The notes below the pieces were generated by a model. That model ran no database searches, was not told the origin of the DNA, and saw only the letters and a list, made by a program, of their open reading frames with translations. A program made the position numbers and the translations under genes. 36,504 bases of DNA from Nitrospirota bacterium (GTDB lineage: Bacteria; Nitrospirota; Thermodesulfovibrionia; Thermodesulfovibrionales; Dissulfurispiraceae), in NCBI GenBank assembly GCA_023476565.1, contig JAMCVZ010000028.1:1-36504 (forward strand), in the 5' to 3' direction. This document shows positions 4,720 through 8,560 of this stretch, one piece after another; position 1 is the stretch's first letter; each line of letters opens with the position of its first letter.

Positions 4720-6165
4720 ATGTTCGGGAAAGCTTATTTCAATTTCTCACTGAACAAGAAGCTTATCTTCATGATGATGTTCCTGAGCTTTATCCTCATC
4801 TCCATCCTCATGTTCTTCTATTCACAGGCAGAGCAAAGCCTTTCCCGCGAGATAGAGCGGCAGACAAAAGAACTCACCAAAGCCATCCAGATAGGAGTTG
4901 AGGAGGTGACGGGCTCCGGTACCACGGACGAAGCACGACTGTCCAAGTATCTGAAGGAGCTCAACGCAAAGGGAGTCAAGGAAATATCCATCATCAGCAA
5001 TGCGGATGAGATAGTGGCAAGCACCAACCCCTCGAAAATCGGCCAGCCCCTTACTCATAAAAAGAAGGAACTTATAATCAAAGCGGAACTGGGGGAGCCT
5101 GTTTCCGAGGAGGGAAGGACTTACAATATCATAATCCCCGTTGTTGCAGGCGAAACCCAGTACGGGTATGTTCACCTGAAGATCAACAAGGACGACTTCT
5201 CCGATCTCCTCCGGGTAAATGCGGCGAAAAGGATTCTGGCCACGGTTTTTGTCTTCGGGCTCGGGACAATAATGACGATCATCCTTTCCCGTCAATATAC
5301 GCGGCCGATACAGAGGATCGTCGATGCCTCGATGAGAGTTGCCGCGGGAGACCTGAACCAGAACCTCCCTGTCAAAGGCAAGGATGAGATCGGGCAGCTC
5401 TCCGAGACCTTTAATTTCATGGTAATGAAACTGAAGGAGAACCGTATTCTCGAGGAACGGCTGAGGGAGGCCGAGCATCTGTCCGGCCTGGGGCAGCTCT
5501 CAAGGAGCATGGCGCATGAGATCAGGAACCCACTGAATTTTATTAATCTGAGCATCGATCACATAGGGGAGAAATACAGGCCCGAGGATCCCGGAAGGCA
5601 GGAGAAGTTCACTAATCTTATCAGCGGCATTAAGCAGGAAATACAGAGGCTCAACAGTCTGGTGAACGATTTTCTCGATTACAGCAGGCCCCTGAAACTT
5701 AACAGGCAAAGGGTAAGGATCGGCTTGCTCCTGGAGGATGTCCTGGCCCTGGTCTGGGCAAAAGCTGAAGCGGACGGTATAAATATAACCAGGCAACGCA
5801 CTTCAGATGTTGAACTCACTGTTGATCCCGTCCTCTTTAAATCGTGTATATTAAACGTCATAACCAACGCTTTCCACGCTATCGGCAGCTCCCAGGGCAT
5901 AGGCACGCTGAAAATAGATGAGGAAGTATCAGGCAATGAATTCTGCTTATCGATAGCCGACAACGGAGAAGGCGTCTCTCCGGAAAATATCGAAAAGATT
6001 TTCGAGCCCTTCTTCTCAACGAAGCAGGACGGCCTCGGCCTCGGCCTTCCCATGACCAGAAGGGTCATGGAGGAGCACGGCGGCAGGGTTGAATTTAACA
6101 GCAGCGCAGGCGAGGGGAGCGAGGTAAAACTGATCCTCCCCTTGGCAGGAAATTGCAAATTTTAA
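4720..6165 (+). CDS. Membrane sensor histidine kinase (HAMP-HisKA-HATPase)
   Basis: Sensor half of a two-component system, 481 residues from the ATG at 4720; a GTG 15 nt upstream is possible but falls inside the likely promoter. Transmembrane segments lie at about residues 14-35 and 171-190, enclosing a periplasmic sensor domain of about 135 residues. A HAMP linker follows (about 190-243, with RPIQRIVDASMRVAAGDL), then the H-box SMAHEIRNPLNF with phospho-accepting His266. The ATPase end shows N-box NVITNAFHAI, G1 DNGEGVS, and FEPFFSTK with GLGLGLP. It resembles kinases paired with NtrC-type regulators, and such a regulator follows 54 nt downstream. The signal sensed is unknown. Confidence 0.92.
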   Translation: MFGKAYFNFSLNKKLIFMMMFLSFILISILMFFYSQAEQSLSREIERQTKELTKAIQIGVEEVTGSGTTDEARLSKYLKELNAKGVKEISIISNADEIVASTNPSKIGQPLTHKKKELIIKAELGEPVSEEGRTYNIIIPVVAGETQYGYVHLKINKDDFSDLLRVNAAKRILATVFVFGLGTIMTIILSRQYTRPIQRIVDASMRVAAGDLNQNLPVKGKDEIGQLSETFNFMVMKLKENRILEERLREAEHLSGLGQLSRSMAHEIRNPLNFINLSIDHIGEKYRPEDPGRQEKFTNLISGIKQEIQRLNSLVNDFLDYSRPLKLNRQRVRIGLLLEDVLALVWAKAEADGINITRQRTSDVELTVDPVLFKSCILNVITNAFHAIGSSQGIGTLKIDEEVSGNEFCLSIADNGEGVSPENIEKIFEPFFSTKQDGLGLGLPMTRRVMEEHGGRVEFNSSAGEGSEVKLILPLAGNCKF

Positions 6166-6219: not shown

Positions 6220-7617
6220 ATGGCAGTAATTATTGTAATAGATGACGAGCAGCGTCAGCGGGACATTATTAAAACCATCCTTGAGGATGAGGGTCACGAA
6301 GCGCACACCGCGCCTTCTGCTGAAAAAGGGCTGGAGCTCATTGAAACCCTTATCCCCGATGTGGTCATTACAGACCTGAAGATGGGAGGAATGAGCGGTG
6401 TTCAGCTTCTGGATGCCCTTCCCGGGGACCCGGTCAGGCCGGCGGTAATTATAATGACGGCCTTCGGGACCATATCATCCGCAGTCGAAGCCATAAAGAA
6501 AGGCGCTTTCGACTATCTTACAAAGCCCCTTGAAAAAGATGTGATTGTCCTGACGGTCAAGAAGGCCGTGGAAAGGATGCAGCTCCTTAAGGACAATATC
6601 AGATTGCAGGATGCGCTTTTCGGAAAGTTCAAAATGGAAGGCATTATCGGCAATTCCAAAAGGATGAGGGATGTCATAGAAGTCGCGAAAAAAGTGGCCC
6701 CGACCTCGGTAACCGTCCTTGTATACGGAGAGAGCGGAACGGGAAAAGAGCTCATTGCAAAGGCGGTTCATTACAACAGCCCGCGACGGACCGGCCCCTT
6801 CACGGCGATTAACTGCGCTGCAATCCCCGATAATCTCATAGAAAGCGAATTGTTCGGCTACGAGCCGGGGGCATTCACCGGCGCGGCCCACAGGAAGATA
6901 GGGCTCTTTGAGTCCTCGGACAGGGGGACCCTCTTCCTCGATGAAGTGGGAGACCTGCCGCTCCTTACCCAGACAAAGATATTGAGGGTCCTGCAGGACA
7001 AAGAGGTGAGGAGGCTCGGAGGAAAGGATAATATCAAGGTCGATGTAAGGATCATAGCGGCGACAAACAAGGACCTTGAGAAAGAAGTCGCCAATGGGAA
7101 ATTCAGAGAGGACCTGTATTACCGGCTCAAAGTGGTGGCGATCGAGCTCCCTCCCCTGCGGGAGAGAAAAGAAGACATCGCGGTCCTTGCAGGCTTTTTC
7201 ATCGAGAAATACAACAAGGAGTTCGGCAAGAGGATAAAAGGGTTGAGCGACGGCTCGGTAAAAGCGCTGGCGGACTATCACTGGCCCGGCAATATCAGGC
7301 AGCTTGAGTTTGTCGTTGAGCGGGCCGTGTTAATGAGCGATTCGGATACGATACAGGTGAACGATATCCGGGGCGAAATAAGGCTTCCGCCTGAAAAGGG
7401 CATGCTGGATATAGAGCTACCCGAAGAGGGCATAAACTTTGAAGAGCTCGAAAAGGAATTGATCAAAAAAGCGATGTTTAAAGCGAATAATGTTGCTGCA
7501 AAGGCTGCCCGGCTGCTCGGCATGACCTATAAGACCTTCTGGTACAGGCTCGAAAAGTTCGGCCTCCATAATAATGTCTCCCCGAAAGAGGATATATATC
7601 CCGAAAAGAGGAACTGA
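6220..7617 (+). CDS. NtrC-family sigma-54-dependent response regulator
   Basis: Activates transcription by sigma-54 RNA polymerase after phosphorylation. The start at ATG 6220 (GGAG 10 nt upstream) gives 465 residues and places the receiver domain directly at the N-terminus; a longer frame from 6178 starts inside the repeat. Receiver domain: VIDDE acidic pair and phospho-acceptor Asp52 in VITDLKM, with Lys102. AAA+ domain: Walker A GESGTGKE (about 170-177), the sigma-54 contact loop GAFTGA (217-222), and Walker B TLFLDEVGD. The C-terminus is a Fis-type helix-turn-helix (KAARLLGMTYKTFWYRLEKF). It is paired with the kinase upstream. A -24/-12 promoter lies 119 nt downstream, so the next gene is the obvious first target. 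Confidence 0.95.
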   Translation: MAVIIVIDDEQRQRDIIKTILEDEGHEAHTAPSAEKGLELIETLIPDVVITDLKMGGMSGVQLLDALPGDPVRPAVIIMTAFGTISSAVEAIKKGAFDYLTKPLEKDVIVLTVKKAVERMQLLKDNIRLQDALFGKFKMEGIIGNSKRMRDVIEVAKKVAPTSVTVLVYGESGTGKELIAKAVHYNSPRRTGPFTAINCAAIPDNLIESELFGYEPGAFTGAAHRKIGLFESSDRGTLFLDEVGDLPLLTQTKILRVLQDKEVRRLGGKDNIKVDVRIIAATNKDLEKEVANGKFREDLYYRLKVVAIELPPLRERKEDIAVLAGFFIEKYNKEFGKRIKGLSDGSVKALADYHWPGNIRQLEFVVERAVLMSDSDTIQVNDIRGEIRLPPEKGMLDIELPEEGINFEELEKELIKKAMFKANNVAAKAARLLGMTYKTFWYRLEKFGLHNNVSPKEDIYPEKRN

Positions 7618-7640
7618 TTACACTTCAGGCAATAGGCACG

Positions 7641-7653
7641 TGGCGATAAGCCA
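7641..7653. promoter_or_regulatory. Candidate upstream activator site
   Basis: TGGC-GATAA-GCCA is a 4-bp palindrome with a 5-nt centre, located about 90 bp upstream of the -24/-12 promoter at 7736. NtrC-family proteins bind such dyads 80-150 bp upstream of their promoters. The dyad is short, so this is a suggestion. Confidence 0.3.
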
Positions 7654-7735
7654 TAGGTAAGTAAAAGCAATTATCCGGTTAAAATCCTTGTTAATCAGTT
7701 TATCTCTTCTCGTCCTGTGCCCCTCGCCTGCTTGC

Positions 7736-7751
7736 TGGCATCAGATTTGCA
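7736..7751 (+). promoter_or_regulatory. Sigma-54 (-24/-12) promoter
   Basis: TGGCATCAGATTTGCA matches the consensus TGGCACG-N4-TTGCW at every position except two (C6 to T, G7 to C), with the invariant GG and GC correctly spaced. Transcription would start near 7762, about 20 nt before the strong Shine-Dalgarno of the gene at 7799. An NtrC-type activator gene lies immediately upstream. Confidence 0.75.
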
Positions 7752-7798
7752 AACATCTTATCTCTGAACTAGAAAATTACAAAGGAGGTGATTTGAAG

Positions 7799-8029
7799 AT
7801 GAAGAGAATAATGGCATTGATTGTAGCGCTTCTTTTTGCATTTGCAATGACAACAGTTGCTTTCGCAGCTGATAAGGCTGATAAGGCAGCAACTCCCAAG
7901 GTTGAGGAGAAGAAGGCTGACGCAAAGGCTGAGAAGAAGGCTGAAAAGAAGGCTGAAAAGAAGGCTAAAAAGGCTAAGAAGGCTAAGAAGGCTGAGAAGG
8001 CTGAAGAGAAGAAGGAAGAGAAGAAATAA
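7799..8029 (+). CDS. Small exported Lys/Ala-rich protein
   Basis: A 76-residue protein with an N-terminal signal peptide (about residues 1-22: MKRIMALIVALLFAFAMTT followed by VAFA, cleavage after AFA). The mature part is almost entirely Lys, Ala and Glu in repeats of the type KKAEKKAEKK, so it is highly basic and probably unstructured or helical. The start is fixed by a near-perfect Shine-Dalgarno (AAAGGAGGTGAT, 7781-7792). It follows a sigma-54 promoter and the sigma-54 activator. No enzymatic function can be named; envelope or nucleic-acid binding through charge is a guess. The coding DNA is itself repetitive (AAGGCTGA-type units), which makes it prone to length change. Confidence 0.8.
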   Translation: MKRIMALIVALLFAFAMTTVAFAADKADKAATPKVEEKKADAKAEKKAEKKAEKKAKKAKKAKKAEKAEEKKEEKK

Positions 8030-8044
8030 TTACTTCTTGATCCA

Positions 8045-8078
8045 GAGGGCAGGCGCTCATAACACCTGCCCTCATTTA
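8045..8078 (+). terminator. Hairpin terminator after the Lys/Ala-rich gene
   Basis: GAGGGCAGG (8045-8053) pairs perfectly with CCTGCCCTC (8065-8073), with an 11-nt loop followed by ATTTATTAT. The T-tract is weak, so it may be leaky and allow read-through into the next gene. Confidence 0.6.
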
Positions 8079-8107: not shown

Positions 8108-8503
8108 ATGAAGAAATCACTATCGTTCATAATTTTGTTGTTTTTTGTAATCTCTATGGCTGGAGTTGCTGCTGCCGCAGGAAAAGTAAAGGTCAAACAG
8201 ATCACCGGGGATGTCGCAGCAGTTGATGTCGCAGCAAAATCCTTGACTGTAAAAGGGAAAAAAGCCGAGGTTGTCGTCATGATAGATGAGCAGAAGACAG
8301 CCGTGAGAATGGATAAAGAAAAGAAGTCCCTCTCCGATGTCAAGGTTGGCGATAAGGTAATCGTAAAGTATTCAGAGGCTGACGGGAAAAATATTGCCAG
8401 AAACATAGAAATAAAACCGGCAAAAGCTGATAAAAAGGGCGCGGAACCCGCAAAACCCGTAAAACCTGCTGCCAAACCAGCTCATACTAAACCCGGTTAT
8501 TAA
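8108..8503 (+). CDS. Small exported protein of unknown function with beta-rich core (DUF5666-like)
   Basis: A 131-residue protein with a clear signal peptide (about 1-24, hydrophobic IILLFFVISMAGVAAAA). The mature core alternates short strands: VKQITGDVAAVDVAAKSLTV, AEVVVMIDEQKTAVRM, and SLSDVKVGDKVIVKYSEADG. That pattern is typical of small OB-like periplasmic domains such as DUF5666; the assignment is a resemblance only. The C-terminal 30 residues are Lys/Pro/Ala-rich and end in HTKPGY. GGAGG 4 nt before the ATG sets the start. It follows the Lys/Ala-rich exported gene by 78 nt and may share its transcript. Confidence 0.8.
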   Translation: MKKSLSFIILLFFVISMAGVAAAAGKVKVKQITGDVAAVDVAAKSLTVKGKKAEVVVMIDEQKTAVRMDKEKKSLSDVKVGDKVIVKYSEADGKNIARNIEIKPAKADKKGAEPAKPVKPAAKPAHTKPGY

Positions 8504-8522: not shown

Positions 8523-8560
8523 AAGGAGGGGACATCGTACAATCGATGCCCTTCTTTTTT
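8523..8560 (+). terminator. Rho-independent terminator
   Basis: The arms AAGGAGGGGACATCG and CGATGCCCTTCTT pair with one bulge and a wobble around a short loop, and are followed by a run of six T (8555-8560). It closes the exported-protein pair. Confidence 0.8.

Follow-up and report, generated by a model that had tools for sequence, protein, structure and literature searches.

The gene for a very small Lys/Ala-rich exported protein, lying directly behind genes for a sensor kinase and an NtrC-type regulator, raises the question of how these genes are connected and which process they serve. This was investigated in a 36,504-nt stretch of DNA, here called the window (contig JAMCVZ010000028.1, positions 1 to 36,504, forward strand), from the Nitrospirota bacterium GCA_023476565.1 (Dissulfurispiraceae), whose 2.67 Mb genome is available as a 96%-complete assembly. 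The promoter, the gene order, the enhancer motif, the co-occurrence of these parts and the targets in relatives were demonstrated by sequence comparison, and kinase, regulator, tandem enhancer, sigma-54 promoter and a two-gene output very probably form one regulatory circuit. The features of the locus are:

4720..6165, plus strand: sensor histidine kinase, 481 aa, with two TM helices, a periplasmic WalK-type Cache, HAMP, HisKA and HATPase (Pfam)
6220..7617, plus strand: NtrC-type response regulator, 465 aa, with Response_reg, Sigma54_activat (AAA+, GAFTGA) and a Fis-type HTH (HTH_8) (Pfam)
7579..7592, plus strand: proposed enhancer (UAS) copy 1, TCCCCGAAAGAGGA, within the 3′ coding end of the regulator gene; conserved tandem motif
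7599..7612, plus strand: proposed enhancer (UAS) copy 2, TCCCGAAAAGAGGA, 20 bp from copy 1; conserved tandem motif
7736..7751, plus strand: sigma-54 −24/−12 element TGGCATCAGATTTGCA, with a predicted start site near 7762; aligned in 36 orthologous loci
7781..7789, plus strand: ribosome-binding site AAAGGAGGT, from the sequence
7799..8029, plus strand: output gene 1, encoding a 76-aa exported Lys/Ala/Glu-rich polyampholyte (from ORF and composition; equivalent ORF in relatives)
8045..8073, plus strand: RNA hairpin GAGGGCAGG...CCTGCCCTC between the two output genes, with a conserved stem
8108..8503, plus strand: output gene 2, encoding a 131-aa exported OB-fold (DUF5666/CusF-like) protein with a Lys/Ala/Pro-rich tail (Pfam in the ortholog set; predicted fold)
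8526..8560, plus strand: intrinsic-terminator-like hairpin with a T run, closing the output operon ahead of an aminotransferase gene

Sigma-54 regulons with NtrC-type pairs are well known, and the original prediction of a −24/−12 promoter at 7736 was borne out. The element TGGCATCAGATTTGCA has the claimed GG-N10-GC spacing, fits TGGCAYRN4TTGCW and stands 48 nt upstream of the ATG at 7799. Genome-wide the strict pattern TGGCAYN5TTGCW was found 27 times in 2.67 Mb versus 5 times for a reversed-pattern control, and once in the window. Other strict sites in the host genome precede nifH-, flagellar-, PilY-like- and cytochrome-like genes, as judged on the first residues of their products, and the host has a single rpoN gene for RpoN. 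Among the 36 orthologous loci in which the element could be aligned, GG, A5, T13 and G14 were invariant in all, and position 15 was C in 26 and T in 10. TTGTA replaces TTGCA at −12 in some relatives (L073, L092, L103, L105-L108, L110, L114, L115 and L126), which amounts to a deviation from the sigma-54 consensus at the level of lineages. Neither motif nor promoter could be recognised at L117 and L120, two orthologs that do have an output-type gene. The output genes of orthologs are likewise preceded by AAAGGAGGTGA-like ribosome-binding sites.

The kinase and the NtrC-family activator with intact GAFTGA that had been assigned directly upstream were confirmed by their Pfam domains. The start codon of the kinase gene is backed by ortholog alignment, and the periplasmic part of the protein is predicted to be a single Cache domain with the extracellular Cache structures of WalK/YycG as its nearest neighbours. 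With a receiver, a sigma-54 AAA+ domain retaining GAFTGA, a Fis HTH and a partner kinase, the regulator has the make-up of a group I NtrC-type enhancer-binding protein. It resembles NtrC, AtoC and ZraR of that group in these parts, in its proposed tandem upstream sites and in its −24/−12 promoter, but falls under the equivalog cut-offs of all three. Identity with ZraSR was rejected on bit scores of 168.9 versus 479 for ZraS and 368.5 versus 760 for ZraR (NCBIfam equivalog cut-offs), and identity with AtoC on a score below its cut-off.

The check that had been suggested, a search for the promoter motif and the gene order in relatives, found both conserved. Most of 60 related genomes contain a best-matching ortholog of the regulator, at 57-87% identity, and the layout of the module is conserved across the Thermodesulfovibrionales (Nitrospirota). 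In the family of the host the usual order is regulator, sigma-54 element, Lys/Ala-rich exported gene and OB-type exported gene. Deeper lineages and two deltaproteobacterial assemblies have the Lys/Ala-rich and OB segments fused into one protein.

An activator site had been proposed at the TGGC-N5-GCCA dyad at 7641-7653. The dyad exists, but 0.87 such dyads are expected by chance in the window and only 1 of the 36 orthologous loci carries it, which makes it private to the host genome, not conserved and unsupported as an activator site. Alignment of the upstream regions of orthologs instead revealed a tandem motif, TCCYNAAANRRGGA-N6-TCCYNAAANRRGGA, at 7579-7612 in the 3′ end of the regulator gene. 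The consensus is TCCYNAAANRRGGA, and the copies are 20 bp apart, in a few orthologs 18 or 21. The motif was present in 34 of 39 orthologs with an output gene and in none of 14 without (Fisher, 5e-9). By hand tally, the pair, with up to 2 mismatches, was found in 38 of 52 genomes with a regulator ortholog and in none of 8 without one (Fisher, 1e-4). Examined as a perfect palindrome, the motif showed no strict covariation between its arms, and it is therefore described as TCC-N8-GGA with an A-tract. In the host genome the pair is unique even with up to 3 mismatches allowed, so that the search yielded no further targets there, a uniqueness that is not absolute because the assembly is 96% complete. 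The other 26 strict sigma-54 sites of the host lack the motif.

The tandem motif was first spotted by eye in the orthologs; its unlinked sites are independent of that observation. They came from a blind search with the motif-pair pattern across the 60 genomes, in which 42 unlinked matches were fetched. At 22 of these 42 sites a sigma-54 element follows on the same strand within 180 bp, against 0.013 per site expected from background; four control placements gave 3, 0, 0 and 1. The distance from motif to promoter is mostly 51-58 bp, about 54 bp. The genes behind these sites encode exported Lys/Ala-rich proteins, ExtJ-like and ExtJ-family proteins, and triheme c7 and monoheme cytochromes; the ExtJ targets scored 78 and 70 bits versus a cut-off of 52.5 (NF040942), and the triheme c7 cytochrome scored 66.8 bits versus 40 (TIGR04257). 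In the reverse direction, a search from the ExtJ family protein model returned many members with the same arrangement of site and promoter, separated by about 51-55 bp. Where the regulator has lost its neighbouring target, the site occurs elsewhere with a new one. This new target is a monoheme cytochrome at L197, L198 and L200, a Lys/Ala-rich protein at L218 and a fused protein at L211.

These sites also bear on what the tandem motif is. It sits within a coding sequence, and short hairpins can form from its arms, so that 7579-7612 might be an RNA hairpin or the conserved tail of the regulator protein, with activation through some other site. That reading is very improbable, since the same motif precedes unlinked sigma-54 promoters at fixed spacing and is lost in the orthologs that have no output gene. 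In several relatives, moreover, the second copy runs into the stop codon of the regulator, lies past it or is in a different reading frame, which argues that the motif is kept as DNA. The RNA hairpin in particular was rejected because arm complementarity is not maintained: in 28 of 66 copies the bases at motif positions 4 and 11 do not pair. On comparative grounds, the tandem motif at 7579-7612 is likely the enhancer of the activator. Possible enhancers within coding regions were raised in a study of the Desulfovibrio sigma-54 regulome, where they could not be predicted because coding regions are highly conserved (PMC4641369). The window and its relatives offer a comparative-genomics case for a sigma-54 enhancer within the coding sequence of its own activator, and the TCC-N8-GGA form with A-tract and this location set the proposed site apart from those of the NtrC family.

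The output had been described as a single tiny, very basic, repetitive exported protein. The Lys/Ala-rich gene stands, but a second exported ORF at 8108-8503 had gone unmentioned, and the output is a two-gene operon. The 76-aa product of the first gene is small, exported and Lys/Ala-rich as claimed, with a Sec-type signal peptide of about residues 1-24. Its mature part of 52 aa consists of 23 K, 13 A, 10 E and 3 D among others, is 69% charged with a net charge of about +10 and a pI of 9.8, and is a polyampholyte, not purely basic, because 10 E and 3 D stand beside the 23 K. In being small, exported and basic with a repetitive Ala/Lys composition it resembles the acid-shock protein Asr. Homology to Asr (NF033636) was rejected at 27.3 bits against a cut-off of 50, and since shuffled mature sequences scored up to 27.2, the match reflects composition and signal peptide only.

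The second output protein is predicted to have a CusF-type OB fold (Foldseek E 1e-4 to 4e-4; Z 10.2-10.7 over 67-76 residues), with CusF outranking other OB folds (Z 8.8) in a model of medium confidence (mean pLDDT 66, core blocks about 72-84). The sequence profile gave no significant match against the PDB, and only the fold comparison was informative. Against DUF5666 (PF18914) the protein scored 18.3 bits, under the gathering cut-off of 27, and against ExtJ (NF040942) 29 bits, under the cut-off of 52.5. DUF5666 matched 7 of 11 members of the family of the window protein at up to 0.01 (best 1.4e-8), and CusF-type Pfam or NCBIfam matches were obtained for several members. The metal ligands of CusF include His and Trp residues. 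The OB domain of the window protein (residues 25-104) lacks His, Trp and Cys altogether, and the His/Trp/Met metal site of CusF is not present; CusF metal chemistry is therefore not expected of it. The protein likewise differs from the CusF/SilF Cu/Ag chaperones and DUF5666 OB domains, which it resembles in predicted fold and through the weak Pfam matches of several family members, by its extra Lys/Ala/Pro tail. Neither output protein matched known cofactor binding by sequence. Between the two genes, the stem of the hairpin at 8045-8073 is conserved in 16 sequences, with at least one compensatory change in 9 of 12 pairs. It may act as a weak or partial terminator, giving an excess of the first protein, or as an mRNA stabiliser.

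In the circuit proposed here, the WalK-type Cache kinase would sense an envelope signal and phosphorylate the NtrC-type regulator, which would bind the tandem sites at 7579-7592 and 7599-7612 in the last codons of its own gene and, through DNA looping, activate RNA polymerase-sigma-54 at 7736-7751. The operon transcribed from there would encode a periplasmic Lys/Ala/Glu polyampholyte together with a CusF-fold OB protein, and the hairpin between the two genes would probably set the ratio of the products. In relatives this regulator would also drive unlinked targets, namely c7 and monoheme cytochromes, ExtJ-family proteins and further Lys/Ala-rich proteins. The phosphorelay, the binding, the looping, the partial termination and the physiological role are what we infer from the comparisons. 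The module had been called self-contained, which fits the host species with its sole enhancer pair in the genome, but in relatives the site also precedes cytochrome and ExtJ-family genes.

Those extra targets of the regulator make control of periplasmic electron transfer or metal handling the most likely role of the module, an assignment held tentatively and with somewhat less than even confidence. The redox link rests on the relatives, because the ExtJ-like gene and the c7 genes examined in the host had neither site nor promoter, and confidence in the physiological role can for the same reason be moderate at best. An envelope-stress module similar to ZraSR-ZraP or Cpx-CpxP, in which small periplasmic chaperones or buffers shield the envelope and perhaps also regulate the kinase in return, follows the same logic of an NtrC-type pair and a small periplasmic target behind a sigma-54 promoter. 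The ZraS and ZraR models do match, though far under their cut-offs, and highly charged disordered proteins are plausible protectants. The window proteins nevertheless have no ZraP, CpxP or Spy family match, and the targets in relatives are cytochromes and ExtJ-family proteins, so that redox is favoured over folding stress and a stress module appears unlikely, if conceivable.

A response to metals of the Cu/Ag type, with the CusF-fold and Lys/Ala-rich proteins handling periplasmic metal ions, is more doubtful still. The predicted fold nearest to CusF (Foldseek E 1e-4; Z 10.7) and the CusF-type matches in family members speak for it, as does one distant fused homolog (L012) with its cysteine motifs; OB folds are common, however, and CusF His/Trp ligands are impossible in the window domain. 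In the homolog in question, a deltaproteobacterial protein (L012, 7572-7949), NPC cysteine motifs recur between the signal peptide and the OB domain, which suggests metal binding there. Returning to the favoured role in electron transfer or metal handling, a speculative extension with only a slim chance of being correct is that a so far undescribed Nitrospirota sigma-54 regulon controls periplasmic electron transfer, in which disordered Lys/Ala polyampholytes and OB-fold partners would provide a scaffold or charge matrix for small cytochromes, and the enhancer inside the activator gene would allow sensor, activator, enhancer and output to travel as a cassette. In the collection of papers that was searched, none describes the regulon.

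Among characterised systems, ZraPSR shares the layout of kinase, NtrC-type regulator and small periplasmic target, but the target here is a Lys/Ala polyampholyte with an OB-fold protein in place of ZraP, and in relatives cytochromes and ExtJ are targets as well. ExtJ of the Geobacter extHIJKL cluster is likewise a small periplasmic protein, and bona fide ExtJ members are predicted targets of the site in relatives. The extHIJKL genes have been implicated in the reduction of metals and form part of a larger ext cluster, itself linked to that of selenite/tellurite (PMC6148476, PMC5877670). Geobacter ext clusters of the extHIJKL type differ from the window module in that a LysR-family regulator gene usually adjoins them (PMC6148476). 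The module links uncharacterised proteins, namely Lys/Ala-rich polyampholytes and DUF5666/ExtJ-like proteins, to a defined signal circuit. For a phylum that is little studied and rich in periplasmic cytochromes, it also supplies a regulator, a binding motif and a set of targets that can be put to the test.

Some minor features of the targets were also observed. Small exported targets that otherwise differ, Lys/Ala-rich and ExtJ-like alike, have in common a C-terminal tail of the form KKKAIEGC (or ...SGGY), at L195, L206, L207, L215, L227, L229 and the ExtJ loci L233-L253; no mention of the IEGC tail was found in the collection of papers that was searched. At L202 and L213, large proteins of 476 and 484 aa, similar to each other, lie behind the motif and a sigma-54-like element and are possible targets outside the small-exported pattern. 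At L212 (G009), two consecutive exported genes with Lys/Ala/Asp repeats, spaced by about 700 bp, are each equipped with a separate motif pair and sigma-54 promoter, an arrangement that, as read from the sequence, is a local duplication of the output unit.
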